64,000 nt of DNA, taken from contig CALFRK010000047.1 in NCBI GenBank assembly GCA_937919625.1, forward strand, positions 1 to 64,000, given 5' to 3'. Within the stretch, counting starts at the first letter, position 1. Every line of letters starts with the position of its first letter. Of this stretch, positions 21,972 to 40,973 are shown one piece after another. Source of the stretch: an uncultured Ilumatobacter sp. Lineage in GTDB: Bacteria; Actinomycetota; Acidimicrobiia; Acidimicrobiales; Ilumatobacteraceae. The notes under the pieces were generated by a model, which saw only the letters and a list, made by a program, of their open reading frames with translations, did not search any database and was not told the origin of the DNA. Made by a program: the position numbers and the translations under genes.

Positions 21972-22005
21972 GAACCTCTGGCTACGTGTCGGCTCATGGC
22001 CGCGA

Positions 22006-22407: not shown

Positions 22408-22446
22408 GGTGAGTTGCCTCCTTTGTCGACCTCATGATGGTCTCTG

Positions 22447-22468: not shown

Positions 22469-22554
22469 AGGGTGCACGTCGGACGGTTTCGGCCCGTCCG
22501 AGCGAGTGTCACCAGCTGCGGTCAGATAGCCATGGAGATGGAAAGGGTGTGCTG

Positions 22555-23253
22555 ATGGCTGCGACGGTTCTGGTAGTCGAGGACGAAACGAAGATCCGGG
22601 ATCTCGTTCGCCGCTATTTGGAACGCGATGGGTTGGCGGTGCTCACGACCGGCTCGGGAGCGGAGGCCTTGATGATGCTCGAGACACAATCGGTCGATCT
22701 GATCGTGCTGGATCTCAACTTGCCCGACGTCAGTGGCGAGGCCGTCGCAACCGAGGTCCGCTCCCGATCCGTGATCCCGATCCTCATGCTGACAGCGAAG
22801 TCGGCAGAGGTGGACAGGATCAGAGGCCTCGAACTCGGTGCCGACGACTATCTCACCAAGCCGTTCTCTCCGCGGGAGCTCGTGTTGCGGGTGCAAGCGG
22901 TGCTGCGCCGGAGCAGAAGTGTCGTTGGCGCGGACGCGGCCACCGCATTTGGTGAAGGGACGTTGATCATCGACGAGGACCGCCATGACCTGATCGTGCG
23001 GGGACAATCCGTTGGGCTGACACCGACCGAGTGGGCGCTGCTCGTGGCGTTGACGGGAGCCCCGGGTCGAGTGTTCTCTCGATCGGAGCTGATCAACCGG
23101 CTGCGCGGCTACGAGTTCGACGGGTACGAGCGCACGGTCGACTCCCACGTGAAGAACTTGCGGCGCAAGATCGAGTTCGATCCTCATGAACCGGCGATCG
23201 TGGAGACGATCCTCGGGGTCGGCTACCGACTGGGGCTTCGCCGTGACGCGTAG
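22555..23253 (+). CDS. OmpR-family response regulator
   Basis: 232 residues from the ATG at 22555. The receiver has the acidic pair Glu9-Asp10, phospho-acceptor Asp53 (LIVLDLNLPD), Thr80 and Lys102 (TKPFSPRE); the winged-helix output ends with YERTVDSHVKNLRRKIE and ILGVGYRLG. The stop overlaps the histidine kinase start by 11 nt. Its neighbours suggest control of the Met-rich protein and perhaps other metal genes. Confidence 0.9.
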   Translation: MAATVLVVEDETKIRDLVRRYLERDGLAVLTTGSGAEALMMLETQSVDLIVLDLNLPDVSGEAVATEVRSRSVIPILMLTAKSAEVDRIRGLELGADDYLTKPFSPRELVLRVQAVLRRSRSVVGADAATAFGEGTLIIDEDRHDLIVRGQSVGLTPTEWALLVALTGAPGRVFSRSELINRLRGYEFDGYERTVDSHVKNLRRKIEFDPHEPAIVETILGVGYRLGLRRDA

Positions 23254-24652
23254 GACGCTGCTCGGCTCGCTCGGCGTCCGACTCACGCTGGCGTTCCTGA
23301 CGGTCGCGATGACTGCCGTCGCTGTATTCGCCGTACTCATCGTCGTAGCTTCGCGTTCCGAGGTGTCCGGGTTGTCCGATCAGCGCCGAAGTGACGACCT
23401 CGCTGCGACTGCTGCCGCCGCGGGCGATGCGTATGTGCGCGCCGGCGGCTGGGAGGGCGCCGACCTGTTCGCAGTTGCGACCGTGGCCGCGCGAGGTCAA
23501 GCAACACTGACCGTGGTCGATGCCGACGGGGCCGTGATCGCTGCGCCCACCGACGCGTTGGCGACGATGATGGCCCGAATGCACGGCGTCGCCTCGGTCG
23601 ACGCCCCGCGCGCCGACCCGGTGTCGGAAGCCGTCGTCGTCGATGGCCGATCCGTCGGGGCGGTGATGCTGCGCTTCCCGACCGAGACGATGGCGGCCGA
23701 ACTACACGTTCGTGACGCACTTTCCCGAGCTGCGCTCACCGGCGTCCTGATCGCCGCCGGGGTCGCCTTGATCGTCGCCGTGTTCGTTTCAGCGCGCCTG
23801 ACGCGACCACTCGTTGCTCTCACGAGCGCGGCTGGAGATCTTGCTGTGGGCCGACGAGACACGCGTGTCGACCTTGCCACCGCACCCGGTGAAATCCGGA
23901 TCCTCGCCGACGCGTTCAACGAGATGGCCGACCACCTCGATCGCGAAGACCAGCTCCGTCGCAATCTCGTCGCCGACGTTGCCCACGAACTGCGGACTCC
24001 ACTCACGATCCTTCAAGGCAACACCGAAGCCATCCTCGATGGCATCGACGAGCCAACACCAGCCGCGATCGCCTCCCTCCACGACGAAGTCGTTCGGCTC
24101 CGACGACTCGTGGCAGACCTCGAAACTCTCGCCGCTGCCGAAGCTGCAGGACTTCGCCTGCGGGTCGATCCCGTCGACCTCGCCGATATCGCTCTCGATT
24201 CGGTCGATCTACTGGGGCCGCTGGCGGCCGAGCGCGACATCACCATCGAAGTCGTCGGTAACTCCGCGCCCGTCAAGGGAGACGCCGACAGGCTCCAGCA
24301 AGTTGTCGTCAACCTCCTAGCCAACGCAGTGAAATTCACGCCACCTGGCGGTCACATCACCATCACCACCGCAGTCGAAAACTGTGCCGCAACGATCACC
24401 GTCGCTGACACCGGCCCAGGTCTGCAGGAAACCGAGATTCCCCATCTCTTCGAGCGCTTCTGGCGCGGCCACGCCACCTCCGAAACCCCAGGAAGCGGGA
24501 TCGGTCTCGCCGTCGTCGCCGAACTCGTAGCGGCCCACCATGGCACCGTTCACGCCACCAACCGACCCGAACGCGGCGCCGAGTTCGTCGTCAGGGTGCC
24601 GGCCAATGCGGATGACTCGACAACCCAGCCGCCGGACCATTCCGATGCCTGA
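23243..24652 (+). CDS. Sensor histidine kinase
   Basis: 469 residues starting at GTG 23243. Membrane helices at about 13-37 and 162-183 bracket an outer sensor domain of about 125 residues (no Met/His cluster visible). HAMP is about 184-236 (RLTRPLVALTSAAGDL), HisKA has DVAHELRTPL with His248, and the ATPase domain shows NLLANAVKF, DTGPGLQ and GSGIGLAVV. A complete, active-looking kinase, cotranscribed with the response regulator. Confidence 0.9.
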   Translation: MTRRTLLGSLGVRLTLAFLTVAMTAVAVFAVLIVVASRSEVSGLSDQRRSDDLAATAAAAGDAYVRAGGWEGADLFAVATVAARGQATLTVVDADGAVIAAPTDALATMMARMHGVASVDAPRADPVSEAVVVDGRSVGAVMLRFPTETMAAELHVRDALSRAALTGVLIAAGVALIVAVFVSARLTRPLVALTSAAGDLAVGRRDTRVDLATAPGEIRILADAFNEMADHLDREDQLRRNLVADVAHELRTPLTILQGNTEAILDGIDEPTPAAIASLHDEVVRLRRLVADLETLAAAEAAGLRLRVDPVDLADIALDSVDLLGPLAAERDITIEVVGNSAPVKGDADRLQQVVVNLLANAVKFTPPGGHITITTAVENCAATITVADTGPGLQETEIPHLFERFWRGHATSETPGSGIGLAVVAELVAAHHGTVHATNRPERGAEFVVRVPANADDSTTQPPDHSDA

Positions 24653-24816
24653 TCGATTGATATCGGGTGTTCGTTACCGACGGCCCTATCGCCATGAGAT
24701 ACTGCCGGCCTGCCACGAACTCGATGTCGTCGGTGAGGCCTGCACGTCAGGGTGGGGGGCCGAATATTCGGTGGTGCGGGTTGACCAGGGCAAACTCGCC
24801 TCCATCCTGGGCCGCC

Positions 24817-25356
24817 ATGCCCCGTATTCTCTACCGCCTGATCGCTTCGCTGGCTCGCCTCGCGGTCCGCTCCGCTCGGTCCAAGGACCTCGAGATCATC
24901 GTCCTGCGCCACCAGCTCACGGTCCTGCGCCGCCAAATCGATCGACCCGCACTCAACGACGACGACCGGACACTGCTTGGAGCTACGGCCGCTGCGCTCC
25001 CCGCGCCTGCCGCACCGGCTGGCTTGTCACACCCGAGACCTTGCTGCGCTGGCATCGCCGACGCATCGCCCACCACTGGACCCAACCCACGCGGGCACCG
25101 GGACGGCCTTCCACCGCCACTGAGATCCGCCAACTCATCATGCGGCTCGCCGCCGAGAACCCCACCTGGGGCCACCAACGCATACACGGCGAACTCGTCG
25201 GCCTCGGCCACCGCCTCGCCTCCTCCACCGTCTGGCGGATCCTCAAAGACAACGGCATCAACCCGTCCCCCGAGCGATCCGAGATCACGTGGTCGCAGTT
25301 CCTGCACTCCCAAGCCGCGGTTGCATGCGACTTCTTCTCCGTCGACACCGCCCGGA
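24817..25356 (+). pseudogene. Frameshifted, 3'-truncated DDE transposase remnant
   Basis: In one frame MPRILYRLIASLARLAVR continues to LEIIVLRHQLTVLRRQIDRPALNDDDRTLLG, the start of integrase-core transposases common in actinobacteria. The match then moves to another frame: ACRTGWLVTPETLLRWHRRR, WGHQRIHGELVGLGHRLASSTVWRILKDNGI and QAAVACDFFSVDTA, where the first catalytic Asp region lies. Everything after that (the second Asp and Glu) is missing. Inactive. Confidence 0.75.
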
Positions 25357-25743
25357 TGGGAGGAAACCCGCGGCTCGATCGCCGTGGCAGCAGCCCAGCA
25401 ATGACCAACGAGCACCTGAGTCGAAACGGGCGAGTCAACCGACGAGCCGACACGCCGGCGCATCCCTGATCGCCAGACGCGAAGATCACCGGCATATGCG
25501 TAGATATGGGCGGTCGCGAGCGGACGCGCTGGCCGTCGTTCTGCGCTGCGCGTTCTGTGTCACCGACCGGCCCTTCCGTGACCGTGCGACTCGTACGGAT
25601 CGTGTGCGTTATGGAGCGGTTGGGCGAGATCGGAATGCTACGTATCCTGAGCGGCCGCAGCGGCGGATCGTCGGCACGTTCTGATCGCATCGTTGACTCG
25701 GTCAACATCGAACGCGCCGCTCATGCGGTCCGACCGGCGGGGT
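25357..25743. other. Gene-free region after transposase remnant
   Basis: About 390 bp without a believable gene. Probably debris of the insertion that carried the transposase; no terminal inverted repeats recognised. Confidence 0.4.
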
Positions 25744-26661
25744 TCATCTTGGATCTCCGTTCGTATTGTCGGTGAGGGTGAGAACGTCGGGGCGGGCGTA
25801 GTGGCCGACGGGATCGAAGGAGCGACGTCCGGCGGCGATCCGATTCAGGTCGAGCGTCGCTGTCACGGTCCCTTCCTGCGCGACCAGCGGCCCTTCGAGG
25901 ATCTCACCACCCGGAGCGACGATGGTCGTGTTGCCGCGGGACAGGAAGCCGTCGGGGTCGTCGTAGATCTCCTTCGCCCGGGGAAGATCGGTCGGTACGT
26001 CGCTGTCACGGATGCACGCAGTGACGCCGACCACGAAGACGCGTCCCTCCTTGGCGATGTGGCGCAGCGTGGGTACCCACTCGTCGCTGTTGTCCCACGT
26101 CGGTGACAGCAAGACGTCGATGCCCTTCTCGTAGAGGGCGGCGCGGGCGAGCGGCATGTAGTTCTCCCAACAGATGAGTGAGCCGACCTTCACACCGCCA
26201 ATGTCGACAACAGTGAGCATCGGTCCCTGGCCGTTCGACCAGACGGTTCGCTCGGCCGCGGTCGGGATCAGCTTGCGGTGCAGCCCGGCGATCTCGCCGT
26301 GGTCGTCGATGTAGACGACCGAGTTGTAGAGCGTGCCTGACATGGTGCGCTCGGTGATGCCGAGGGCAACCCACACGCCCGCCGCCTCGGCTGCGGCACG
26401 CGCTTTGTCGAGGTGTGGCCCATCGATCTCGACTGCCTGATCCTGGAAACGCTCGTACCAGCCGCTGTCCTCGGTAATCGGCATCCGCCACACGAAATCG
26501 GGGTAGCCGGGGACGAAGGATTCGGGAAACGCGACGAGATTCGCCCCGTCGGCGCCGGCTTTGGCGACGTGATCGGCGACGATGTCGAGCGTGCCGTCGC
26601 GGTCGAGATAGGCGGGGGTCGCCTGCACGGCCGTCACCCGGAACTCGCCACTGGCGGTCAT
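25744..26661 (-). CDS. Nitrilase-superfamily amidohydrolase
   Basis: 305 residues from the ATG at 26661, which overlaps the methyltransferase stop (ATGA). The catalytic triad is complete: Glu47 in FPESFVPGYPDFVW, Lys130 in LHRKLIPT, Cys164 in SLICWENYMP. CWENYMPLAR is characteristic of branch 1 nitrilases (cyanide dihydratase or aliphatic/aryl nitrilase) rather than amidases. It should hydrolyse a nitrile to the acid and ammonia. Cotranscribed with a methyltransferase; the natural substrate is unknown. Confidence 0.85.
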   Translation of the reverse strand: MTASGEFRVTAVQATPAYLDRDGTLDIVADHVAKAGADGANLVAFPESFVPGYPDFVWRMPITEDSGWYERFQDQAVEIDGPHLDKARAAAEAAGVWVALGITERTMSGTLYNSVVYIDDHGEIAGLHRKLIPTAAERTVWSNGQGPMLTVVDIGGVKVGSLICWENYMPLARAALYEKGIDVLLSPTWDNSDEWVPTLRHIAKEGRVFVVGVTACIRDSDVPTDLPRAKEIYDDPDGFLSRGNTTIVAPGGEILEGPLVAQEGTVTATLDLNRIAAGRRSFDPVGHYARPDVLTLTDNTNGDPR

Positions 26662-27509
26662 CGCGTCGCTCCGGCGATCACGAGCTCGCACGGTCCGACG
26701 AATCCGTCGGCCGTGTTGTACTGGCTCAAGGCTTGTTCGATCTCGTTCCAGACGTCGGCTTGTTCATCATTGTCCAGCGTGCCGAGCATCTGGTGTAGCG
26801 CACCAAATGATTCGCGTTCGAAGCGCACGCAGTCGGCCGCCGATGGGAGCCGAACGGGAGCGTTGATGGTTTCCACGACGACGTCGTGGAAACCTGCCTG
26901 TGTGAGATCACGCTCGAGGACAGCGGGGTCGGCGAGGCTGAACGGACCGGGCTGGCCGGCTGCGGGCGGCGGAAGCTTGGCGCGGTCGCGGATGATCGAG
27001 ACCGGCAGCGAGAAGAAGCCGTTGGTTGCAGCGGTCGAGTAGGTCACCGTCGCGAAGCGTCCGCCGTCGCGCAGCGTGTGATGGATTCCGCTGAGTGCCT
27101 CTTGGCGGTTCGGGAAGTAGATCAGGCCGACCCGGGAGATCGCCGCATCGAAGCTCTCGCCCGGGAGCTCACGCAGCGCCTCGCCATCGAGTTCCTTGGT
27201 TGTCAGGTTGGTCAGGCCCGCCATGGTTGCGGCCCGTTGCGCGTGGTCAAGGATGGCGGGGGAGAGGTCGGTGGCGAGCACCGTGCCGGTGGGGCCCACC
27301 CGGCGGCACGCAGCGATGCTTTGGCCACCGGCGCCCGCAGCGACGTCGAGGACGCTGCTTCCGGTTGTGGCACCAGCCAGGTCGAGCATGCGCTCGGTCG
27401 CCTCGCCGAGCCAAGACTCAAGCAGTGGGGCCCAGTCGTTCCAACCGCTGGCGTAGTCCTGCCATTGCTGGCGGGTGGAGGTCTTGTACTGAACTGAGTC
27501 GAATGTCAT
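26658..27509 (-). CDS. Class I SAM-dependent methyltransferase
   Basis: 283 residues. VLDVAAGAGGQSIAA is motif I, VLATDLSPAILDHA motif II, FDAAISRVGLIYFPNRQEAL covers the central motif, and LRDGGRFATVTYS follows. The N terminus TRQQWQDYASGWNDWAPLLESW is usual in UbiE/ArsM-like small-molecule methyltransferases, but no Cys pair for arsenite is present. First gene of a two-gene unit with the nitrilase. It is divergent from the large ATPase gene, with repeated CGCCAGA motifs between. Confidence 0.82.
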   Translation of the reverse strand: MTFDSVQYKTSTRQQWQDYASGWNDWAPLLESWLGEATERMLDLAGATTGSSVLDVAAGAGGQSIAACRRVGPTGTVLATDLSPAILDHAQRAATMAGLTNLTTKELDGEALRELPGESFDAAISRVGLIYFPNRQEALSGIHHTLRDGGRFATVTYSTAATNGFFSLPVSIIRDRAKLPPPAAGQPGPFSLADPAVLERDLTQAGFHDVVVETINAPVRLPSAADCVRFERESFGALHQMLGTLDNDEQADVWNEIEQALSQYNTADGFVGPCELVIAGATR

Positions 27510-27548
27510 GTCTGTCGTCCTTCCGGGTTGGGTGTGTCATCCTGAAGG

Positions 27549-27606
27549 CGCCAGATCAACGGCGTTTCCGCCAGAATCAATCTGGCGATTTTGACGAAAC
27601 GCCAGA
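27549..27606. promoter_or_regulatory. Cluster of four CGCCAGA elements
   Basis: CGCCAGA at 27549-27555, 27569-27575 and 27600-27606, and its complement TCTGGCG at 27581-27587. The two middle ones form an inverted repeat with a 5-bp centre. They fill the gap between divergent starts at 27509 and 27616. Confidence 0.55.
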
Positions 27607-27615
27607 AGGGATGTC

Positions 27616-30600
27616 ATGAGCGACGGAAGCGGAGGCGGGGTCGTGGGGCGCGCTGAGCCTCTGCAGCGTCTTGGCGAGGTGGTGACGGCATCGGTCAACG
27701 GGCGTTCTTCGGCGGTGCTCGTGAGCGGTGAGGCGGGCATCGGCAAGACCTCGCTGATCAGGGCCGCCATTGAGGGCGCGACTGCGGATTCGGCGCCGGG
27801 TTCGGCCGTCGTGGGGTGGGGTACGTGCTGGCATGGTGACGGGGCCCCGGGTTTTTGGCCGTGGATGCAGGCGTTCGACGAGGTCGCGAATGCGGTGGGT
27901 CGCGACGTCGCGTCTGCGGCTGCTGGGTACGATGCTGGCCTCTTGTCGCTCCTGATTCGCGAGCTCGGTGCGCCCGAGTCGGCGGCGGGCGACCCAGACG
28001 GACACCGTCTCCTCCTCCTCGACGCGGCGGCCGGTTGGCTTGAGACTCTGGCCGCGGACCGGCACGTGGTGGTCGTTCTCGACGACCTCCAATGGGCAGA
28101 TTCCTCGACGTTCGACCTGATCGACTACGTGATCGGAACGCCCCGGGCCGCGCGGCTGCTGGTGATCGGCGCGTTTCGCCATGACGAGCTCGACCAGGAA
28201 CGACGCGCTCGACTTGCGACGATCGGCTCCCATGCCCGCGGCGTGCATCTTGACGGTCTCACGGTCGATGGTGTCGAGGAGTTGATTCGAGCGATCCCGG
28301 GCCCGCCAGCGTCGCGTTCACTCGCTATCGACCTCCACCGGCGAACCGGCGGGCATCCGCTCTTCGTGGGTGAACTCGCACGATTGCGTGCCGCCGGTGA
28401 CCTTGCTGCGCTCCCGACGGTGGTGACTGGGGCTGTCATCAGACGTCTCGACGCCCTGTCGACGGAGAGTCAACGCTTGCTCGAAGTTGCGAGTGTGCTG
28501 GGCAATCGGCTGCTGCTCGACGTGTTGGGCGCCGTCACCGATACGGCTCCGGCGGCGGTATTGGGCTACCTCGCGCCGGCGGTCGATGCCGGGCTGGTCA
28601 GAACTGCGCCGGGTGATGAGTTCTGGTTTACCCACGACATCTATCGCGAGACGCTCTACAGCGAACTCGACGCGGCCGACCGTTCCGGGCTTCACGCCGC
28701 GGTCGGCGCCGCCCTCGAGGTTCGTCGAGAGCGCGGTGCTGAGGTGCCGCCAGGCGACGTGGCGCTCCACTACGTTCATGCGATCGCCACCGTCGAGCCG
28801 GCTCGGGCGATCCGTTGGGCCAGTGAGGCAGCTCAGGACGAGCGCCGACGTCTGGCATTCAGCGAGGCCGCCGGACACCTTCGCCGGGTGCGCCTCGCGA
28901 CCATCGACGGTGGATGGCGCATCGAGCCCGATGTCATGACCCGGTTGCTGATGGACGAAGCTGACAACCAGGCCCGCTCGGGCGACCCAGAGGCCGCCCG
29001 CGGCCTGCTGGTCCAGGCGTTGAGGGCGGCCCCCGGTGCCGAGGCACTCGCCGACGTGGCCTTGGCCGTGCAGCGACTCGGCGCCAAGTTTTCTGTGCCC
29101 CGCGACGAGATCATTGCGCAACTCGAAACAGCGCTGGCCGCCGTGACCGGTGTCAGCCTGACGAAGCAGGCGCAGCTCACCGCGGCGCTGGCTCGTGAAC
29201 TCCAGCACTCGGTCGCGAAGGATCGCCACCGCGCCGGGCCACTCAGCGAAGAGGCGCTGACACTCGGTCGACAATCAGGCCACGACGAGACGATCGCCGC
29301 CTGCCTCCTCGCCCGCCACGACGCCCTGTGGGGCCCAGGAACCGGAACCGAACGAGCCGAACTCGGTCACGAGATCGCCGTTGTCGGCGCCGCGCTCGGT
29401 GACATCGACCGTCAGGCGGAGGGTCTGATTCTCGAGGCGAACGGCCTGTTGGAATCCGGCGACGCCCGGTTCCGTTCTGTGCTCGCCCAATGGTTCGACG
29501 TGCTCACAGCCAGGAACGAACCTCGAGATCGATACATGGTCCAGACGCGGCGTGCCGCGCTGGCCCTGCTCGACGGCGACCTCGATCGCGCTGAGGCGCT
29601 CATGGACGAAGCCGGACGCATGGGAGAGCAGATCCACGAACCGGACACCGGCAACGTGCTGATGTCCCAGCGCGTCGCGCTCGCGTCGGCCCGCCGAGAC
29701 CCCGACGAGCTGAGGACGCTCGCCACTGATGCCGTGCGCTGGTGGACCGGAGCACCAGTCCTGGCTCACGCGGTCGCAGCAGGCGCACTGGCCAAGGCCG
29801 GCGACCTCGAGGATGCCGAAAACGAGGTGGCGAAGGTGAATGCATCGGGCGGCTGGCAGAGCGAGGGCTCATACCTCAGGTCGGTCTTGGTGGGCCATCT
29901 TGCCGAGGCAAGCGTCGCTCTCGGGAACCGCGAACTATGCGTTCATCTCCTCGCCGACATCGAGAACATCGCGGATGCGTGCGGCGTGAACGGAGCGGTC
30001 GTGGCCTTCGCAGGACCATTCGCCCACAGCGCGGGCATCTTGGCATCCGCACTTGGTGATCAAGAGACTGCGAGCTCGATGCTCCACCAATCGATCGAGA
30101 CATCTCGCCGCCTCGGCGCGGCCGTCTGGGTGCGCCAGGGAGAAACTGCACTACGGGCCATCAAGGAGCGATCAGCCGCGTCCACACCGGATGGCGCCGA
30201 CGACTCCGAACCCGAGACCGCATCGCTCATTCGCCAGGGAGCCGTCTGGACGATCTCGTGGCATCACGAGACGGGAACGCTGCCGCACCTGAAGGGCTTG
30301 GCCGACATCGCGACCCTAATCAGCCATCGCGACCAGGAGGTTTCCGCTCTGGAACTCGCCGGTGGACCTGCAGTGTCCGGCGTCGCGACCGACGCGATGG
30401 CCGATCGGCAGTCGCTCGATACCTATCGGCGGAGGCTCGACGATCTCGATGCGGAGATCGACGTCGCCGACCGCGATGCCGACCTCGGAAGGACCGGACT
30501 ACTCGACGCCGAACGCCAGCAACTTCTCGCCGAGCTGCGACGGGTCACCGGTCTCGGCGGCCGGATTCGATCGAACCCCAACGATCCAGCGGAGCGAGCG

Positions 30601-30762
30601 CGCAAGGCCGTGAGCGGTCGCATCCGCGACGCAATCGGGCGACTCGCTGAGATCACGCCAGGTCTCGCGGCCCACTTGGATCGTTCGATCCGTACCGGGC
30701 TGCGGTGCTCGTACTCACCCTTGAGTCACGACGAGCAGATGCAATGGAAGATCGAGATGTGA
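27616..30762 (+). CDS. Large STAND/MalT-like AAA ATPase
   Basis: 1048 residues. The N terminus VVGRAEPLQRLGEVV leads to Walker A SGEAGIGKTSL (38-48) and Walker B VVVLDDLQWADSSTF (about 150-164), then GGHPLFVGELARL, the AAA/STAND pattern of LuxR/MalT-type signal ATPases. Residues about 380-880 are helical, TPR-like repeats. No LuxR helix-turn-helix is seen at the end; instead RIRDAIGRLAEITPGLAAHLDRSIRTGLRC-type sequence closes the protein, a C-terminal module found in actinobacterial predicted ATPases. A ligand-sensing regulator of the divergent methyltransferase-nitrilase unit is plausible. Confidence 0.75.
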   Translation: MSDGSGGGVVGRAEPLQRLGEVVTASVNGRSSAVLVSGEAGIGKTSLIRAAIEGATADSAPGSAVVGWGTCWHGDGAPGFWPWMQAFDEVANAVGRDVASAAAGYDAGLLSLLIRELGAPESAAGDPDGHRLLLLDAAAGWLETLAADRHVVVVLDDLQWADSSTFDLIDYVIGTPRAARLLVIGAFRHDELDQERRARLATIGSHARGVHLDGLTVDGVEELIRAIPGPPASRSLAIDLHRRTGGHPLFVGELARLRAAGDLAALPTVVTGAVIRRLDALSTESQRLLEVASVLGNRLLLDVLGAVTDTAPAAVLGYLAPAVDAGLVRTAPGDEFWFTHDIYRETLYSELDAADRSGLHAAVGAALEVRRERGAEVPPGDVALHYVHAIATVEPARAIRWASEAAQDERRRLAFSEAAGHLRRVRLATIDGGWRIEPDVMTRLLMDEADNQARSGDPEAARGLLVQALRAAPGAEALADVALAVQRLGAKFSVPRDEIIAQLETALAAVTGVSLTKQAQLTAALARELQHSVAKDRHRAGPLSEEALTLGRQSGHDETIAACLLARHDALWGPGTGTERAELGHEIAVVGAALGDIDRQAEGLILEANGLLESGDARFRSVLAQWFDVLTARNEPRDRYMVQTRRAALALLDGDLDRAEALMDEAGRMGEQIHEPDTGNVLMSQRVALASARRDPDELRTLATDAVRWWTGAPVLAHAVAAGALAKAGDLEDAENEVAKVNASGGWQSEGSYLRSVLVGHLAEASVALGNRELCVHLLADIENIADACGVNGAVVAFAGPFAHSAGILASALGDQETASSMLHQSIETSRRLGAAVWVRQGETALRAIKERSAASTPDGADDSEPETASLIRQGAVWTISWHHETGTLPHLKGLADIATLISHRDQEVSALELAGGPAVSGVATDAMADRQSLDTYRRRLDDLDAEIDVADRDADLGRTGLLDAERQQLLAELRRVTGLGGRIRSNPNDPAERARKAVSGRIRDAIGRLAEITPGLAAHLDRSIRTGLRCSYSPLSHDEQMQWKIEM

Positions 30763-30795
30763 GGCAGCGGTTATGCGCGCCCCGACTTCACCGAA

Positions 30796-30972
30796 TCAAC
30801 TCGGTTCTCCAAGCTGGTTTGCCCACTCGAGCAGCGATTGGTAGGCGGACTCGTCGGCTCGGATCTGAATGGTGCCGAGTCGCCGGCCGAGCTGATTGAT
30901 CGCGACCGCGGCGCGAGTGTCGGTATGGGTGTCGACACCCACGATGATCTGTGTGGTCTTGTCTGGCGTGAT
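30796..30972 (-). pseudogene. IS110-family transposase N-terminal fragment
   Basis: About 58 codons beginning near TPDKTTQIIVGVDTHTDT and continuing AAVAINQLGRRLGTIQIRA, the start of the DEDD (RuvC-like) domain with its first Asp in GVDTH. The usual ATG is absent (ATC/ACG where it should be, after AGGAGT) and the frame stops after about 58 residues, so it is dead. Confidence 0.75.
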
Positions 30973-31668
30973 TGTGGTACTCCTGATCCTCGATGGTTGG
31001 AAGCACCCACTGGCCGGGACGGCGGACAGGACAGTTAGGGCGTCGATCGAGACTCCTGACTTGTTCAAATGGGGCCACCCCGCCCGACCGGTCGGTGCGT
31101 GTCCAACCCCGGACTTCGTCGACGGATCAGTGCGAGGGCACCCGAAGGGCCCGGTTGCGTTGCAGGTCAGACCGAACCCCACCACATGACGGGACTAATC
31201 CCCGGGACCGGACCACACCATCATGACTAACTGTTGCATTGAGCCACTTTGACGGTCGGCAGCGTTGCAGTCAGTCACTCGACGTGGTGGTCGTTCTGGG
31301 CGGGATCGCAGAACCCGACATCGGGCGAGCGCCTCGACCGAGTCAACACCGACAGCCAAGACCCCGATCATCGACCGCCATGTTCGAAACCCGATTTTCA
31401 GCGCACTGCTTGGCGATCAGCGGCACCGTCTGATCGGGGGAGTCGCGATCGTGTTGCACCAGCATCGGCCCGGTCTCGAGCATCCGGTTCGCTCGACAGC
31501 GGATGCCGACTCGACGAACCCGCATCCGCGCCCTTTTGCCGGGCTCGGGTGCACAAGACTCGGCGGACACGGGCGGTACTGGAGCAGACCGGACGGACAT
31601 CATGGAACGACCCTCCAGGTCACAGCGTTCTGGACGGACAGTGCCGCACTCGACGGACATCATTTGCC
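30973..31668. other. Gene-free right end of island copy 1, with direct repeats near att
   Basis: About 700 bp with no credible gene. Near the att junction GACGGACATCAT occurs at 31592-31603 and 31652-31663, with a related GGACGGACA at 31632-31640. Repeats in this position could be recombinase arm or excision-factor sites. Confidence 0.5.
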
Positions 31669-31726
31669 GGGCTTAAACCCCCCTTCCACGAAAGTGGAGT
31701 ACGGGTTCAAATCCCGTCCCGGGCAC
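31669..31726 (+). repeat. Internal att junction between the two island copies
   Basis: An exact copy of 3684-3741, preceded by island right-end sequence rather than by the tRNA 5' half. It is therefore not a second functional tRNA gene: the acceptor 5' strand, D arm and half of the anticodon stem are missing. This is the expected attP/attB-type junction of a tandem integration. Confidence 0.85.
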
Positions 31727-32085
31727 GATAAAAGACCAGCTCAAAGGCCATATCACCATTTGTTCGTAGGTGTCGAAGCGTGATTCCGTGCACCGGAGGT
31801 GCACAGAAATTTTGTGTTAGCGGAAATCGGACATCCCCTGAGTCGTTATGCGTCGTTGTAATCGCGCCTGTGAACGGCGCATTCGCTATGGGCTGCCGGG
31901 CAGGTGGCGGAGCTTGGGGCGGTCAGCGGTGCTCCGAATGCCGGATCCCGGATGTGTCTGAGGCCGTCCGGTCGCCGCGAATACCGTACATCGCACTGGG
32001 GTAGGTTCCCGTGCGGTGTCTCGTAACGCTGGCTCGGGTTATCGAGCGTGGTTATCGGGTGTCCCTGGCCGCACATATGCCCCGG
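31727..32085. other. Gene-free left end of island copy 2
   Basis: Same sequence as 3742-4100, here joined to the internal att junction. Confidence 0.6.
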
Positions 32086-32385
32086 TCAGCCGCGGGCGAG
32101 GACCTGGCGGAGTTGGTCGATCGTTGGTGAACCGGCTGGTCCGTCCGGTGTCCGGTAAACACGACACGACAGCCCTACTGGGTCGTCGGCATCAGCGAAT
32201 GGGTCGGCGCCATTGACGATGATGCTGGGCGAACCTCGGAACCTGGTGGCTTCGGCAGCTTCGATGGTCTCCACCAGTCGGTGGGTCAGGACGATGTCGG
32301 GATTCTCGGCGGCCAGTGTGCGGAGGTGACCGTCGGCGATACGCCAGTTCGGACAGTCATCGAAGTAGAGCAGTGTCACGTCCAT
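32086..32385 (-). CDS. Thioredoxin-fold small protein, copy 2
   Basis: Duplicate of the 99-residue gene at 4101-4400 with the single-Cys DCPNW site, again head-to-head with its MerR gene and shared operator. Confidence 0.7.
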   Translation of the reverse strand: MDVTLLYFDDCPNWRIADGHLRTLAAENPDIVLTHRLVETIEAAEATRFRGSPSIIVNGADPFADADDPVGLSCRVYRTPDGPAGSPTIDQLRQVLARG

Positions 32386-32398
32386 GGCCCGATCGTAA

Positions 32399-32420
32399 AC
32401 CTTGATCTACGGTACAAGGT
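32399..32420. promoter_or_regulatory. MerR-type operator dyad, copy 2
   Basis: ACCTTG/CAAGGT dyad, as at 4414-4435. Confidence 0.65.
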
Positions 32421-32439
32421 CAAGGGGTATGTTGGATAC

Positions 32440-32856
32440 ATGAGGATCGGCGATCTTGCTGGCGAGTGCGGCGTTCCGACACAAACGATCCGGTTCTACG
32501 AGAAACGTCGACTGATGCCCGAGCCGCGCCGCGCCCCGAACGGGTACCGGTCCTATGACCAAGCATCGGTGGAACGGGTGGCCTTCATTCGTCGAGCCCA
32601 GGGTGCCGGGCTGACCTTGGCGGAGATCGGGAGCGTGCTCGATGTCCGAGCCGAAGGATACGCCCCCTGCGACCACGTGTCGGAACTGCTCGAGTCGAAA
32701 CTGCGTGAAGTCGAAGTGCGGATCAACGAACTCGGCGTCCTTCGGGGCGAACTCATCACACTTGTCGAACGGAGCGAGAGCCTCGACCCCGCAGACTGCA
32801 CGGCTGGCGCAATCTGCCACATCCTCCAACCCGGTTTGCGGAGCAGCGACAGTTGA
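32440..32856 (+). CDS. MerR-family heavy-metal-responsive regulator, copy 2
   Basis: Duplicate of 4455-4871 (138 residues, Cys77/Cys120/Cys126). Both copies keep an intact operator, so dosage rather than divergence is the visible effect. Confidence 0.85.
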   Translation: MRIGDLAGECGVPTQTIRFYEKRRLMPEPRRAPNGYRSYDQASVERVAFIRRAQGAGLTLAEIGSVLDVRAEGYAPCDHVSELLESKLREVEVRINELGVLRGELITLVERSESLDPADCTAGAICHILQPGLRSSDS

Positions 32857-33047
32857 ACGCTCGATAGTCGAGAACGGGCGTTGACCGAGGCCGGGATGAC
32901 CGCGGCCGGGTGGGCCTGCCCGCCCGGCGTGGGTGGTACGGCACGTCGACCGAGGTCGGAGGTGTGTCGTCAGGTTCGCTCGAGTGCCGGTCACCGCGCG
33001 CTGAGATCGAGGGGCTCACCGCGACGTTCCGGGCACTCACCTTCGGG

Positions 33048-33548
33048 CTACGCCGTGACGACAATCGGCAATAGCATGCCCTCCTCGTAGTGGTCGTCGA
33101 TGTGGCATGCCAGCTCGAGCGTGCCCGCTGCCGTCGGCTCGGTGAACGTCACGTCCAATGCGGTTGTCTGATCGACTTGGAGGTCGTCTTCTTCGATGTG
33201 GGCTACGGCCATGCCGTCCATCATCTCCATCGACATCTCACCGGCCGGAATCGGCTCCACGATCATGAACTCGTGTTCTTCGAGTCCGGTGTTGTGCACG
33301 ACGATGTGGTACGGCACGCCGACTTTGAAGGTGGTTACTGAACTGTCGAAGAAGTAGTCGCCGGCGTCGATGTCGACGACGACCGCTCCGTTGGCGTCGG
33401 TGGTCAGGGGTGCTGGCTGCGTCGTCGGGACGGTGACGCCACCGCCTGTGTTGTCGGCTGGCGACGAGGACGAATCGTCGCCGCCTCCGCATGCTGAGAC
33501 CGCTACCGCAAGGGCGGCGACCGTGAAAATGCTGATGATTTGGCGCAT
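33048..33548 (-). CDS. Cupredoxin-like lipoprotein, copy 2
   Basis: Duplicate of 5063-5563: lipobox Cys20, type 1 copper ligand set His and Cys-His-Met intact. Confidence 0.8.
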   Translation of the reverse strand: MRQIISIFTVAALAVAVSACGGGDDSSSSPADNTGGGVTVPTTQPAPLTTDANGAVVVDIDAGDYFFDSSVTTFKVGVPYHIVVHNTGLEEHEFMIVEPIPAGEMSMEMMDGMAVAHIEEDDLQVDQTTALDVTFTEPTAAGTLELACHIDDHYEEGMLLPIVVTA

Positions 33549-33566
33549 TTGTCTCCTTCACAATAA

Positions 33567-33586
33567 ATACTTGTACGCGCAAGTAT
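33567..33586. promoter_or_regulatory. Dyad operator upstream of cupredoxin lipoprotein, copy 2
   Basis: ATACTTG/CAAGTAT dyad, as at 5582-5601. Confidence 0.5.
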
Positions 33587-33874
33587 CTCAGATCGTGTCT
33601 GACCCCGGTAGGGTCAAACGGCCCTCGTCCACGGCCACACGACTCGTGTGATGCTTGGCTGATGTTGGGTGAACACGTGACGGAAACTGAAATCGCTTGG
33701 CAATCGAACTGCTTCTCCGGGGGACGATGGTTCACGCGGACGATGGCATTGTCGAGCTGGCGGCACCACTTCTCGGCCGGGCGAACGACGTTCCGCGTCC
33801 GAGGTGAGCTCCCCGGTTGAAGGTCGATCCGTAACCGTTGCCCGAGTCGGGAGGCGGGTACGGTTCGTGGCGAG

Positions 33875-34285
33875 ATGATGTTGCGATTGATGCTGGTGGC
33901 GATCGTCGTGATCGCGGGCACATGGGGTGTGATGATCGTGCTCGCACGACGGCTCCCGACAGGGTCGGCCAAAGATCTTTTGAGCGTGCTCCCGGCGTGC
34001 GTCACCACGGCCCACAGGCTGCGCACCGACCCCCGCGTGCCGCACCGGGTTCGTATCGTCGTCGGATTCGCCGGACTCTGGGTGCTGTCACCGATCGATC
34101 TGATCCCCGAGTTCCTGCCCGTGATCGGAGCGCTCGACGACATCGTGGTCGTCGCGCTCGCATTGCGCTACGCGGCTCGCCGGATTCCACCACAAGCACT
34201 GCTCGATGCCTGGCCCGCTGACCGGCGGATTCTGGAACGTCTCGTACCCTCGATCGCGAAGCTGAAGGAGGGGGAGACGCACTGA
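33875..34285 (+). CDS. YkvA/DUF1232 family protein, copy 2
   Basis: Duplicate of 5890-6300; SPIDLIPE signature retained. Confidence 0.75.
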   Translation: MMLRLMLVAIVVIAGTWGVMIVLARRLPTGSAKDLLSVLPACVTTAHRLRTDPRVPHRVRIVVGFAGLWVLSPIDLIPEFLPVIGALDDIVVVALALRYAARRIPPQALLDAWPADRRILERLVPSIAKLKEGETH

Positions 34286-34355
34286 TGGTCGGTCCTTCAG
34301 GTGGGTCAGTTGGTGGACCCCGATGGACGGACGGTCAACTGAGCGTGCACGCTCG

Positions 34356-35855
34356 TCAGGTGGCGGCGGCGACGAGCCAGGCGGTGAGCATCACGACGAC
34401 GACAAAGACGGCGGACTCGATCGTGAGGGTGGTGCGCAGCTCCCGGGCGAGCGTCGGGTCGTCGGGCGCGGCCTCGAGGGCGGGACGCAGGTGGAAATGG
34501 TTGTAGGCGCCGAGCCCTGCGGCGACGGCGACGGCGAGGGTCTTGAGGATCAGAATTCGCCCCCAGTCGGTGCCCACGAGGTCTCCGGGTGTGTCGAGGA
34601 TCAGGACGGTCATCGCGACGCCGGCGGCGATCACCGCAGTCAGCGAGACCGTGGCGAGGGACGAGAAACGGATCACCATCGCTGCCATGCCCGCTCGCTC
34701 CGAACGTCGCCGCCGCAGCCAGGCCACGGTTGTCATGGCGAACACCCCGCCGCCCCACACCGCCGCTGCGCCGACGTGTACCAGGTTGAGCAGAGAGTGT
34801 ATTGCCCACGGCCCCTTGCTGACGGTGTGGCCATCGAACCAATAGGACACGAGCACGATCGCGTAGCCGGCCAACCCAAGACCCGCCGATGCCGACGGCG
34901 ACCACCGATGCTCGTTGGGCGACTCGTTCGTAGTGACCGAGTGGGCATATCGCCGGAGGTCGGGGGCGACCGCGGCAGACAACGAGTGTTGCGGAGCGAT
35001 TATGGTGCCGGCTCGAGCGTGGAAACCGAACCACACGGCGGCTCCGCCGGCGACTTTGAGCAAGGCCGCCAGACCTGCTTTGGTGTCGACGAGTTCGCCA
35101 ATACCCACTGATTGCGCGGCCTGCAGCCCTGCGAGTTCGACGATGCCCCCAGCGGCGATCGCGAGTCCGGCGAGACGGACCCATGCGATCACGCTGCGCA
35201 GCTCGTCGCGGCGGCCGCGTATCACCCACACGAGCGCGGCGAGCGCGCCCAGACCGAAGACCGTGCCGGTGAACGTCAGCGCCCGACCGGCACGGCCCAC
35301 GGGTACCGCGTCGTCGCTCGACGAATCGCTCGCCAAGAACTCGTCGATCGAGCTCGAAGACGTCGCGCCAAGTGATTGGTCGGCGGCCGCGATCCCGATC
35401 GGCGGTGCGGTCGTCGAGACCACCGGAGCCGCACCGGCCGGTGCAGTCGTGGTGGGAGGTGTCGGCTCGGTGACGTCGAACTGGAAGCCACCTTCGATGG
35501 GGTGGGCGTCACCGGCCTGCACCTTCCATCGCACTCCATAGGTCCCGGCGCCGAGCGGTGGGTCGAATCGCAGGACGAACGCGGTCCCATCGGTTGGGTC
35601 GATAGACGTCGGTGTCAGAACGACCCCCGACGGGTCGAGCAGCTGGAACCCCTCACCGGAAGGGACGGCCGGGTTCGTGAAGGACACCGTCACCGTGCCG
35701 AGCGGCCCCTCGACACTCTGTTGATCGGCAGGATCCGAGGACTCGAAATCGGTGTGCGCAGATGCCACGCTGGACCAGCCGCCGATGATGGTGGCGGCCA
35801 GGAGTACAACGGCGATGCGGTGGGAGCGCGCCAATGAAAGCGATGGAACCGACAT
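34356..35855 (-). CDS. CopC-CopD fusion, copy 2
   Basis: Duplicate of 6371-7870 (499 residues). Mature N-terminal His34, Asp116 and His118 of the CopC site are unchanged. Confidence 0.88.
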   Translation of the reverse strand: MSVPSLSLARSHRIAVVLLAATIIGGWSSVASAHTDFESSDPADQQSVEGPLGTVTVSFTNPAVPSGEGFQLLDPSGVVLTPTSIDPTDGTAFVLRFDPPLGAGTYGVRWKVQAGDAHPIEGGFQFDVTEPTPPTTTAPAGAAPVVSTTAPPIGIAAADQSLGATSSSSIDEFLASDSSSDDAVPVGRAGRALTFTGTVFGLGALAALVWVIRGRRDELRSVIAWVRLAGLAIAAGGIVELAGLQAAQSVGIGELVDTKAGLAALLKVAGGAAVWFGFHARAGTIIAPQHSLSAAVAPDLRRYAHSVTTNESPNEHRWSPSASAGLGLAGYAIVLVSYWFDGHTVSKGPWAIHSLLNLVHVGAAAVWGGGVFAMTTVAWLRRRRSERAGMAAMVIRFSSLATVSLTAVIAAGVAMTVLILDTPGDLVGTDWGRILILKTLAVAVAAGLGAYNHFHLRPALEAAPDDPTLARELRTTLTIESAVFVVVVMLTAWLVAAAT

Positions 35856-35889
35856 GAGTTCGACACACTATCGCAATGCATGGGAGATG

Positions 35890-35905
35890 CTACGGAGTGT
35901 CGTAG
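35890..35905. promoter_or_regulatory. BlaI/CopY-type operator, site 1, copy 2
   Basis: CTACGGAGTGTCGTAG between the second copC-copD and blaI genes. Confidence 0.65.
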
Positions 35906-35967
35906 AGTGGTCGCACGTGAGGATGCCGACGCCGTAGGCGGCGGGTTGATCGAACAAGGAGAGCTGA

Positions 35968-36324
35968 ATGGGTCGTCGACCCGATGGAGCATTGGAACGG
36001 GACGTACTGAAGGTGTTGTGGCGCTCTGACGGGCCCCAGACCCCCGGAGAGGTGCGCGAACAGTTGGACGTCGACTTGGCCTACACGACTGTGATGACCA
36101 TTCTGGCCCGCCTTCATGACAAGGGTCTGACGAATAGGTCGGCTCGCGGTCGGGCCTTTGCGTACACCGCGACGGTGAGTGAGTCCGAACTCATCGCCAA
36201 GCGAATGAGTGCCGAGTTGTCAGTGACGAAAGATCGTGCTGGGGCATTGGTTGGGTTCGTCGGCGGACTGAACAAGCGGGATATCGCAGCATTGCGGAGC
36301 GTGCTGGAGGATGACATCGGGTGA
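35968..36324 (+). CDS. BlaI/MecI/CopY-family repressor, copy 2
   Basis: Duplicate of 7983-8339. With two repressor genes and twice the number of operators, their ratio in the cell stays the same. Confidence 0.85.
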   Translation: MGRRPDGALERDVLKVLWRSDGPQTPGEVREQLDVDLAYTTVMTILARLHDKGLTNRSARGRAFAYTATVSESELIAKRMSAELSVTKDRAGALVGFVGGLNKRDIAALRSVLEDDIG

Positions 36325-37199
36325 ACGTCGCGGTGTTACTCCCGCTCGTGTTGGCTCTCATCGCCGCGCTCGTGACGGCAGCTGTTCATCGTCGGCTTCG
36401 GCCCGACATCGCGGCAGTCCTGTTGACGGCCGCGATTGTTGGGGCCACGCTGGCGGCGTTGCCGACGCTGGTCGTGTTGTCACTTGGCTTTGTCGCTCAT
36501 CAGCCGTTGCTCGATGGCGGGCTGGACTGGTGTCGAGACGTCGTCGGCTTCCATGCTGCGATCAATCCGTGGGTGGGCGGCACGGCGTCAGTTCTGCTCA
36601 CCGCCGGAATCGTACGCTTTGTACGTGTGTGGCTGGTCTGGCACCGGTTCCATCGTTCAGATCCTGGCGATCCTGAGGTGGTCGAGAGCGATGCGTTGTT
36701 CGCCTACTCGCTGCCCGGAGCGGGGCGTCGCGTGGCGGTGTCGAGCGGCCTCATCGGGGCGCTCGATCCTGAGGAGTTCGCGATCGTGATGGCTCACGAG
36801 CGCGGTCATGCCAACAACCGTCACGATCGTCATCTGTTGTTGGCCGACTTGGCAGTCGCTGTGTTCCCGCTGGTCGCGCCGGTGCGCAGCAGACTCAGGT
36901 TCGCTCTCGAACGATGGGCGGATGAGTCCGCTGTGGTGGCTCTCGGATGTGACCGCCGGCTCGCTGCGCGCACGCTCGCCCGGGTTGCGCTCGCTCAGGT
37001 TGACACGCCCCCATTGGCGGCGGCATACAACGACCTCGGTGTTGCAGCAAGGGTTGACGCTCTGCTTCGCCCACCGGCTCTGTCGCACCAGCGGTGGTGG
37101 TCTACCACGATGCAGGTTGGTGTCGTGGTCGTGATGCTGACGGCGGCGATTCAGGCCCACCATGTGTTTGGTTTGCTCGTGTCGCTCTGTCCCGACTGA
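36321..37199 (+). CDS. M56-family membrane metallopeptidase, copy 2
   Basis: Duplicate of 8336-9214; HERGH zinc site and the GTGA overlap with blaI retained. Confidence 0.8.
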   Translation: MNVAVLLPLVLALIAALVTAAVHRRLRPDIAAVLLTAAIVGATLAALPTLVVLSLGFVAHQPLLDGGLDWCRDVVGFHAAINPWVGGTASVLLTAGIVRFVRVWLVWHRFHRSDPGDPEVVESDALFAYSLPGAGRRVAVSSGLIGALDPEEFAIVMAHERGHANNRHDRHLLLADLAVAVFPLVAPVRSRLRFALERWADESAVVALGCDRRLAARTLARVALAQVDTPPLAAAYNDLGVAARVDALLRPPALSHQRWWSTTMQVGVVVVMLTAAIQAHHVFGLLVSLCPD

Positions 37200-37212
37200 A
37201 GGCCCGCTCTGA

Positions 37213-37240
37213 CGGACTCGTGACATCCGTCACGAGTCCG
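37213..37240. terminator. Hairpin after M56 gene, copy 2
   Basis: 12-bp perfect stem, as at 9228-9255. Confidence 0.5.
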
Positions 37241-37274
37241 ACATCTAATCGTCATCAATCCGTAACATTGCGAG

Positions 37275-37838
37275 ATGTCTTTATCGTCATGTCTTGGTCT
37301 GGGCGCGCTCTCGCTTCTGATCGCCACCGGCTTCGTAGTCGCTGTCCCGAATCCAGCCAGTGCTCACACGGTCGAGCAGACGTCATCGTCCACTGGCGTG
37401 GAGGCGCTGGACGCATGCCCGGTCCCCGGGGGTAGCGATTTTGTCGACAGTTGGGGCGATGCCCGGTCGGGTGGCCGCCGTCATCAGGGCGTCGACGTGG
37501 CGGCTGACCGTGGGACGCCTGTCGTCGCCGTGAGCGATGGCGAGGCCGAGTTCAAGCGCAGCAATCTCGGAGGCAACTCGATCTGGCTCGTGACATCGAG
37601 CGGCGAGCGGTTCTTCTACGCCCACCTCGACAGCTGGGAAGGTTCGAGTCGGAAGGTCACGGCGGGAGAGGTCGTGGGCTACGTGGGGAGCAGTGGAAAT
37701 GCTCGCGGTAACCATCTCCATTTCGAGACCCACGCCGGTGATCGCCCAGTGAACCCATATCCGTTGGTCGAGACCGCCTGCAGCGTATCGGCGCAAGAAT
37801 TCGCACCTGCATTCGGACGGCGCATCATCTTGCGCTGA
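37275..37838 (+). CDS. Secreted M23 metallopeptidase, copy 2
   Basis: Duplicate of 9290-9853 (187 residues), zinc ligands HQGVD and HLHFE intact. Confidence 0.88.
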   Translation: MSLSSCLGLGALSLLIATGFVVAVPNPASAHTVEQTSSSTGVEALDACPVPGGSDFVDSWGDARSGGRRHQGVDVAADRGTPVVAVSDGEAEFKRSNLGGNSIWLVTSSGERFFYAHLDSWEGSSRKVTAGEVVGYVGSSGNARGNHLHFETHAGDRPVNPYPLVETACSVSAQEFAPAFGRRIILR

Positions 37839-37887
37839 ACGAGGGACCCTCGTTTCTCGGCTCGCCGATCGAATCGATCGGCGAAGG

Positions 37888-39045
37888 TCAGCCCGCTTCC
37901 GCGCCAACGGTCGTTGTCGGACCTGAGGTCGACGTCGTCGTGCTCGAGGTTGTTGTGGTTGCGGGCGTGGTTGGTGGGTGCGGGGCGGTGGTGGTTGTTG
38001 TTGTCGTCGATGTTGTGGTCGTGGTCGATGTGGACGATGTTGTGGTGGTGTAGTTCGGGTCGGGCCAGTCGAATCTCATCGGTTGAGCTCCGTAGTGTTC
38101 GGGCTCCTCGACGCCGTCGAACACGTATACCGCGTCACCGAGCTCGACGAGTGCTTGGAAGTACTCGGCGATGTGCATCGGAAACCGCACGCATCCTCGC
38201 GAGGCTGGGTAGTTGGGGACCTTGCTGGCGCCGTGGACGGCGATGCCGTAGTTGAAGTAGATCGGCTTGTACAAGCGGCCCAGCTTGGCGTTGCGCCAGC
38301 CCTCAACTTTGCGTTCGAAATGGTAGACGCCGCCTGGTGTGATCGAGAGCCCGCAGATGCCTTTCGTGGTCTGGGATCCATCGTCTTCGTCGATCGTGAC
38401 CTCATCGCACCACTCGACGCCGGCACCGCTCGACACGTGGGTGATTAAGCGAACCTGTCCATTGGCGAACAGCGCGGCGACCTGCTCGGGCAGGTACACC
38501 TCGAGATGTGTTCCGCCGGGGGTGCGCCTCGGCGTGACTGTCACTGGACCATGGAGACGGTCCCAGAGCTCCGGCGTGACGACCCCGGTCGCCTCCTCGC
38601 GGGCGGTGCCAATCACCAATTTCTCGAACGCCCATACCGACCGGAGGGTGGCCTCACCAAAGTAGTCATCGACCGGTCCTGGGTCGAAAGCAAGGTCGGT
38701 CAGTCGCTGTTGGAGGAGCCCGACCTTGGGATCGACATTGCCGGCGATCAGATCATGATCGAGTGTGGGCGTCGCAACTTCCCCGGAGATCGAGCCGGGC
38801 GTGACGGGTTGTGCGCGTGGATCCAGGTTCGAGTCGTTCACCGGCGCGGCGCCAGGTGAGGTGGTCGACGGCTGGCCGCTTGGGCCGGTCTGCAGGTTGT
38901 CCGTGCTCGCTCCGCTCGGTCGCCCGAGCGTCCACCAGGCGCCGAGAGGCACGGCAGCGACGGCGCTGCCCACCAGAAATCGCCGCCTCGTGTAGACAGC
39001 TTGAAGGTTGGGGTTGTGATCGTGGCTGTCGTGTTGTCGCGTCAT
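37888..39045 (-). CDS. L,D-transpeptidase, copy 2
   Basis: Duplicate of 9903-11060. The Thr-rich tail, normally prone to length change, has the same number of codons in both copies, which supports very recent duplication or an assembly repeat. Confidence 0.9.
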   Translation of the reverse strand: MTRQHDSHDHNPNLQAVYTRRRFLVGSAVAAVPLGAWWTLGRPSGASTDNLQTGPSGQPSTTSPGAAPVNDSNLDPRAQPVTPGSISGEVATPTLDHDLIAGNVDPKVGLLQQRLTDLAFDPGPVDDYFGEATLRSVWAFEKLVIGTAREEATGVVTPELWDRLHGPVTVTPRRTPGGTHLEVYLPEQVAALFANGQVRLITHVSSGAGVEWCDEVTIDEDDGSQTTKGICGLSITPGGVYHFERKVEGWRNAKLGRLYKPIYFNYGIAVHGASKVPNYPASRGCVRFPMHIAEYFQALVELGDAVYVFDGVEEPEHYGAQPMRFDWPDPNYTTTTSSTSTTTTTSTTTTTTTAPHPPTTPATTTTSSTTTSTSGPTTTVGAEAG

Positions 39046-39083
39046 GATCGGTATCGATGGTCTCCGGTTGCGCCCCAGAACAA

Positions 39084-39098
39084 ACTACGATTCGTAGT
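39084..39098. promoter_or_regulatory. BlaI-like palindrome before L,D-transpeptidase, copy 2
   Basis: ACTACGATTCGTAGT, as at 11099-11113. Confidence 0.6.
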
Positions 39099-39151
39099 AA
39101 CGGAACCCACTCCGCGGCAAACAACTTCCCTGAGCAATCAAGGCATCATGC

Positions 39152-40381
39152 TCAGCACGCCGATCTGACGTACGGGTAGGGGTTGACGGCCACTCCGCCA
39201 CCCGGGTGCACCTCGAAATGAAGGTGGTTTGCGCTCGTGTTGCCGGTTGCTCCGACGTAGCCGATCACTTCGCCCTTCGACACCGAGCGGCTGGAACCCT
39301 CCCAGGCGCTGAGGTGGGCGTAGTAGTAACGCGTCCCGCTCGAACCCTGAAGCCAGACTGCGTTCCCGCCGAGCTTGTTCGCCTTGAACCGGGCTGAGCC
39401 AGACTCCACAGCGACGAGCGGTGTGCCGCCTGGGGACATCATGTCGACACCTTCGTGTCGCCGCCCGCCGGAACGTGGATCGCCCCAGGTGTCGGAGAAC
39501 CCCCGCGGGCCGGCGACCGGGCATGCCATTCCGGATCCCGCGTTTGCCGGAGGAGCTGGCGCCGGAGCCGCCGGTGCCGGTGCCGGTGCCGCGGCTGATG
39601 CACCGGAGGATCCCCCTGAGTTTGATGAGCCCGCTGACGCGGATGACGATCTTGATGGTGACGACGCTGGTTGAGCAGCGGCTGCGGCCGCCTGGCGCTG
39701 CTGTTCCTGTTCGCGCTCCTTGCGTTCTTGTTCAAGGCGCGCTTGGCGCTGTCGTTCGAGTTCGTGCTGCACGGCAGCGTCCTGCAAGCGTTCCTGTTCG
39801 ACCTGTTGCAGGCGCAACACCTCGGCTTCGGCAGTCGCTTGCAGGTTGGCGAAGTCTTCGCCAGCTCTGACCGTCTCGGAGCGTCGATCTTCGAGTTCGT
39901 TCCGGGCGTGATCGAGTTCGTCGATGGCGGCGTCGAAGTCGTCGGCTCGGATGAGCTCGGAGCCCGTCGCAGCACCCAAGTAGACCCTCGCGGTCGCGCC
40001 ATCGTTGCTGCGCGTTACGTCACTGAACAACATGAGTGGCGCCTGGCCTGCCCCGACGAACTGACGAACTGCCGCGTCGGCCAGGCCAGACCGCAACACG
40101 GACACCTCGCGCTCGAGCTCACCGAGCCGCTGCTCAGCAGCAGTGAGTTCAACCGTCAGGGTGTCCAAGCGCGATTCCGCATCGAACATCGCCTCGGCGG
40201 CGGCATTTGCTCGGTCGCGAGCATCGAGGATCTCGCCAGCGGCGCGTTCTGCCTCAGCTCCGGTGTGCTCGGCGGAGGCGTGTTCGGGCGGCATCGATCC
40301 GACGCTGGCCAGCATGATCGCCAGCGCCAACGCCAGCGCCAGCACGGCAGGGCGGTGACGCGCGCCTATCTCCGACAACAT
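39152..40381 (-). CDS. Coiled-coil M23 metallopeptidase, copy 2
   Basis: Duplicate of 11167-12396 (409 residues), with the same TAATAT box 8 nt before the ATG and no Shine-Dalgarno. Confidence 0.85.
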   Translation of the reverse strand: MLSEIGARHRPAVLALALALAIMLASVGSMPPEHASAEHTGAEAERAAGEILDARDRANAAAEAMFDAESRLDTLTVELTAAEQRLGELEREVSVLRSGLADAAVRQFVGAGQAPLMLFSDVTRSNDGATARVYLGAATGSELIRADDFDAAIDELDHARNELEDRRSETVRAGEDFANLQATAEAEVLRLQQVEQERLQDAAVQHELERQRQARLEQERKEREQEQQRQAAAAAAQPASSPSRSSSASAGSSNSGGSSGASAAAPAPAPAAPAPAPPANAGSGMACPVAGPRGFSDTWGDPRSGGRRHEGVDMMSPGGTPLVAVESGSARFKANKLGGNAVWLQGSSGTRYYYAHLSAWEGSSRSVSKGEVIGYVGATGNTSANHLHFEVHPGGGVAVNPYPYVRSAC

Positions 40382-40401
40382 GTCGTAGATATTACAGAAC
40401 G
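40382..40401 (-). promoter_or_regulatory. Likely leaderless promoter, copy 2
   Basis: TAATAT plus CTACGAC half-site, as at 12397-12416. Confidence 0.4.
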
Positions 40402-40539
40402 ATGACGGGTTTGAGGCATCGGGGGTCGCGGCAGTTGGGCGAGATCGCCGATTGGCACACTGGCGGCGGGCGGCCGACGAGTTGACCGCAAGGTCGAGTG
40501 CACGTTCGCGAGGCGATAGCGTCGTCAATCGGTAGTGTA

Positions 40540-40555
40540 CTACGACAGTGTGTCG
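40540..40555. promoter_or_regulatory. BlaI/CopY-type operator, site 3, copy 2
   Basis: CTACGACAGTGTGTCG before the small lipoprotein gene, as at 12555-12570. Confidence 0.55.
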
Positions 40556-40580
40556 TCGTTGACTGTGCGGAAGGAGTCTG

Positions 40581-40955: not shown

Positions 40956-40973
40956 CTGCCTCGATCTTGCGAC

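Follow-up and report, generated by a model that had tools for sequence, protein, structure and literature searches.

The locus behind the tRNA-Leu(TAA) gene described here is an ordinary island array that assembly has probably distorted. In the window (the whole stretch of 64,000 nucleotides analyzed, part of the draft assembly of an Ilumatobacteraceae bacterium), an island that we call Y appears twice in tandem behind this gene, with right ends, A and B, that differ from each other (Table 1). The reading we favor, with moderate confidence, is an integration array in which ends A and B come from two events, and in which both the identity of the copies and their two-copy order result from the assembler's walk through a single loop. 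The identity, the copy number and with them any homogenization of the copies are unproven, and the assembler has most likely shaped them.

Table 1. Features of the tRNA-Leu(TAA) locus, in positions of the window
Feature	Position	Strand	Source or remark
Intact tRNA-Leu (anticodon TAA), integration target	3655..3741	+	ARAGORN, Rfam
attL, the final 58 bp of tRNA-Leu	3684-3741	+	The exact repeat starts at 3684
Island Y, copy 1 in the assembly, with copper/metal-type cargo	3742..31613	+	Pfam
The 55 bp preceding the divergence	31559..31613	+	Sole interior stretch with identity guaranteed in both contexts (k=55 graph)
Right-end arm variant A, with GACGGACA boxes	31614..31668	+	
att A, 58/58 match to the tRNA 3' end	31669..31726	+	Junction between the two apparent copies
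Island Y, copy 2 in the assembly, equal to copy 1	31727..59598	+	Identity is not independent evidence
Right-end arm variant B	59599..59653	+	5 substitutions relative to A, GACGGACA boxes unchanged
att B, a displaced 3' end from a different tRNA-Leu type, with the TTCATCGAGAGGTGAG arm	59654..59711	+	8 changes relative to the tRNA
Fourth, outermost att, diverged	62454..62511	+	Variable-arm type as att B; without CGGAC boxes upstream

An intact tRNA bounds the island on one side and a copy of that tRNA's 3' end on the other, the arrangement of a tRNA-integrated genomic island. The cognate integrase of such an element was found neither as a PF00589 match anywhere on this contig nor, with the integrases of relatives as queries, as a remnant in Y. 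Flanking att sites that have been kept and integration genes that have been lost correspond to a CIME (cis-mobilizable element), and four att copies of two tRNA types behind one target correspond to an accretion array; the arrays of relatives are alike. The cargo identified by Pfam consists of CopC-CopD, a metal-sensitive repressor, MerR, a cupredoxin, a PCYCGC protein, a cytochrome c, signal peptidase II and a two-component system.

Several further observations concern the edges of the island. Its right end (30788-31078 and 31423-31511) is made up of degraded coding pieces. Read by eye, the minus strand around 30800-31000 looks like the start of an IS110-type transposase, for which Pfam gave no match, and G003 has a longer open frame that matches 31423-31511. 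The 2.8 kb from att B to the outermost att (59712-62511) hold a HipA-like gene and a small HTH gene and are probably the remnant of an older island. The sequence past 62511 resembles parts of this unit at 83-85%, and a related further unit may lie there. An alternative-oxidase-like gene (PF01786; 62596-63399) adjoins the outermost att.

Letter for letter, positions 3684-31613 recur at 31669-59598, a repeat of 27,930 bp with 0 mismatches at an offset of 27,985. Directly beyond it, A and B differ at five positions of the 55-bp arm (31614, 31628, 31642, 31650 and 31667) and at eight of the 58-bp att (31672, 31674, 31678, 31687, 31688, 31692, 31695 and 31696), and over the final 30 bp of att (31697-31726) they match again. 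The counts given in the first-pass annotation, five substitutions in the arm and about eight in att, were exact. If a single substitution rate applied throughout, 13 differences in 113 bp beside none in 27,930 bp could not be put down to chance. By hand calculation, 5 differences in 55 bp right after 0 in the 55 bp of guaranteed identity correspond to a one-sided p of ~0.03. This step at 31614 leaves room for a true local breakpoint and counts against the assembly-loop explanation.

The differences between A and B do not resemble random error, as att A agrees with the tRNA 3' end at 58 of 58 positions and the TTCATCGAGAGGTGAG arm of att B is also present in the fourth att. We rejected a polishing or base-calling error as the source of end B, given that the variable arm of att B recurs in a separate att and that the GACGGACA boxes are intact. 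Judging from the letters, the TTCATCGAGAGGTGAG arm of att B can still pair as a stem.

Ends A and B are probably real variants, and their sequences suggest that they are traces of two separate integrations of related islands. Because the two carry different tRNA 3'-end types, they would stem from different integration events. We discarded the idea that one element had excised and reinserted, turning B into A, since the arm differences (31614-31668) sit upstream of the tRNA-homologous segment and would not be produced in this way. The earlier proposal that a second, slightly different element had arrived fits these data, as the ends differ in both tRNA 3'-end type and arm, and arrays of relatives also have right ends that have diverged. 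Integration of related islands at one tRNA is an already known kind of event, and the simplest reading of ends A and B follows the accretion at one target gene that has been reviewed (PMC5704250). The array at tRNA-Leu(TAA) would have been built by repeated site-specific integration, presumably through an integrase reaction, with each newcomer entering at the tRNA, bringing a new tRNA 3' end and displacing the previous end outward. The arm-B element may have entered a tRNA bearing the other 3' end, which a related arm-A element would have replaced when it later integrated at this tRNA.

To what extent the assembled order can be trusted depends on how the contig was made. Contig ends in this genome overlap by exactly 55 bp, which points to an assembly at k=55, the usual final k in SPAdes and metaSPAdes. 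Among 80 contig stretches sampled from this genome for exact repeats, six pairs have an exact repeat of precisely 55 bp in common. At least one contig end takes part in every such overlap, and four of the six link the ends of two separate contigs. Outside the island, these 80 stretches contain no exact repeat above 92 bp. A fixed k, with contig ends overlapping by exactly k, is the setting of a de Bruijn loop artifact. Consistent with such an assembly, a 16S gene is cut at a contig start inside a conserved segment, and cutting 16S in conserved segments is a tendency of de Bruijn assemblers (PMC11443906).

At k=55, the graph of the window has four edges, the left flank (3738 bp), Y (27,930 bp), loop A (165 bp) and exit B (4457 bp), and its path runs left, Y, A, Y, B, right, with a single loop. 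One edge leads back to the start of the repeat and one different edge leaves it, which is the form a de Bruijn loop artifact takes. The stretches common to A and B beyond 31613 are all 30 bp or shorter, so that A and B cannot re-merge at k=55, and a loop that is walked out needs two different right ends. The first-pass annotation had expected identical right ends from an assembler loop; this was wrong, as an edge back and a different edge out are required and the ends must differ, and its case against a loop fails. In the reading we favor, the assembler would have walked left, Y, A, Y, B, right after collapsing small differences. Assemblers break at such repeats more often than they walk them, which counts against this explanation. 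The number of loops is not inferable from graphs of this kind, and integrated repeats cause phantom cycles in them (PMC9104695).

Simulation, carried out with simple home-made bulge popping and not with the actual assembler program, indicates how much difference such a graph can hide. A second copy with 26 or 131 substitutions relative to Y gave the same four-edge graph after bulge popping, and copies differing by ~0.5% gave a graph identical to the one observed. Raising the number of substitutions to 265 and 571 lengthened the loop edge to 300 and 426 bp, which makes hidden divergence above ~1% less likely. Given a k=55 loop walk, neither identical copies nor exactly two copies are demonstrated. 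A loop walk would account for the 28,000 identical bases, and no unusual copying mechanism is needed.

This bears on the homogenization suggested earlier, which is not supported, as a k=55 assembly yields interior identity even if the true copies differ slightly. That related tandem islands were made identical over 27.9 kb by recombination, with their putative integrase-binding right ends kept distinct, strikes us as very improbable. Read literally, the assembled sequence does agree with gene conversion of diverged tandem elements over 27.9 kb that spared the right ends. However, the identity has no independent support, and so long a tract is unnecessary given assembly collapse or a recent duplication; we find this version scarcely credible.

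At the middle junction, no 56-mer reaches from an A-specific base to Y's left end, since the common att between them is 58 bp long. With an att of that length, support for the tandem junction has to come from reads or read pairs, or from the lack of another continuation, and the assembly offers no other continuation of end A. The latter fits a true tandem of two near-identical Y elements, in which an end-A circle would have re-entered at the tRNA beside a resident Y with end B, the right end of the resident having been exchanged earlier, by homologous recombination within the right-end region, for that of an older related element. The order tRNA-Y-A-Y-B matches accretion on the tRNA side, and SGI1 arrays of up to six copies are documented (PMC5704250). 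Nevertheless, we judge a true tandem to be unlikely, as it requires the additional end-exchange event and has the assembled order as its sole direct support, an order that k=55 short reads cannot establish over 27.9 kb.

That no 56-mer ties an A-specific base to Y's left end is compatible with a mixture of strains, in which cells with a single island ending in A or B (or a circular end-A form) were joined by the assembler. As att (58 bp) exceeds k (55), a phantom loop would arise if one short edge were lost. At k=55, two single-copy strains give a graph that departs from the observed one by short edges only (80, 58 and 193 bp), and phantom cycles arising from integrated repeats have been described (PMC9104695). 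For this to occur, however, the assembler must delete a real edge; popping of equal-length bulges, the simple procedure used here, did not by itself convert the two-strain graph into the observed one, and we consider a strain mixture a rather improbable source of the tandem.

Comparison with relatives supports the integration array that we prefer as an explanation. The right end of the present element, with its CGGAC-box arm repeats and its copy of the tRNA 3' end, has counterparts throughout the family. There, tRNA-Leu(TAA) genes have distal att copies behind them, and CGGAC boxes occur as direct repeats in the 150 bp upstream of the distal att, ranging from 0 to 7 per site. At least three boxes are present at 16 of the 23 family sites, against ~0.3 expected. 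In several relatives, a tyrosine integrase gene begins directly behind the tRNA. At two loci (L063 and L061), a single tRNA has a pair of distal att sites behind it, with right ends that are 79% and 74% identical over 150 bp, and in G005, an Ilumatobacteraceae MAG (JALHOG010000012.1), the variable arm of the distal att differs from that of the intact tRNA, as it does here. Differing right ends within one array are thus normal.

The first-pass annotation had pointed to single-copy islands with end A or B in related genomes as a check; this search was run and none were found. In the genus, family and order, this genome alone has full-length matches to the exact right end, and other genomes gave matches to the att part only or 3-mismatch matches to a short pattern. 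A pattern scan of genome contigs returned one record, the end in G005, which is related but diverged. Public plasmids, phages and viral contigs held no match to the element or its end.

Two other features of these sites were observed. Many right ends of the family (L056-L066) have a TGCACGAATCCTGCACRGGA-like motif ahead of the CGGAC boxes, and a TGCAC repeat similar to this motif lies just right of att B (59750-59800). At three loci, L025 (2265-4745), L064 and L065, only 1.3-2.4 kb separate the tRNA-Leu from the distal att, and it is possible that these short units are minimal elements without an integrase. As a by-product, the comparison yielded a set of tRNA-Leu(TAA) islands that spans the Ilumatobacteraceae and can be recognized by a CGGAC-box right end.

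The locus also carries a caution, in that a long exact tandem island with differing right ends in a short-read assembly has the look of a graph loop. Since a graph loop mimics a tandem, identity, copy number and homogenization should not be read from a short-read assembly. The phantom cycles of metagenome graphs (PMC9104695) are a close parallel, as there too a repeat in two contexts yields a cycle and integrated elements are a stated cause, although here the cycle is written out within one linear contig. The Dehalococcoides ssrA islands (PMC3146451) resemble our locus in having numerous islands in tandem after a single RNA gene, with the 3' end of that gene directly repeated at every boundary and a conserved motif immediately before the repeat, and in the lack of an integration module in about half of the islands. 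They differ in using a serine recombinase and tmRNA, whereas the relatives studied here have tyrosine integrases beside tRNA-Leu, and no duplicate islands were reported within one strain. The tandem accretion of ICEs, IMEs and CIMEs (PMC5704250) departs from our locus in that the two apparent copies here are identical only in assembly, but the likeness extends to the reuse of the target 3' end, the att copies between successive elements, the decayed units without an integrase and the chimeric inner att.
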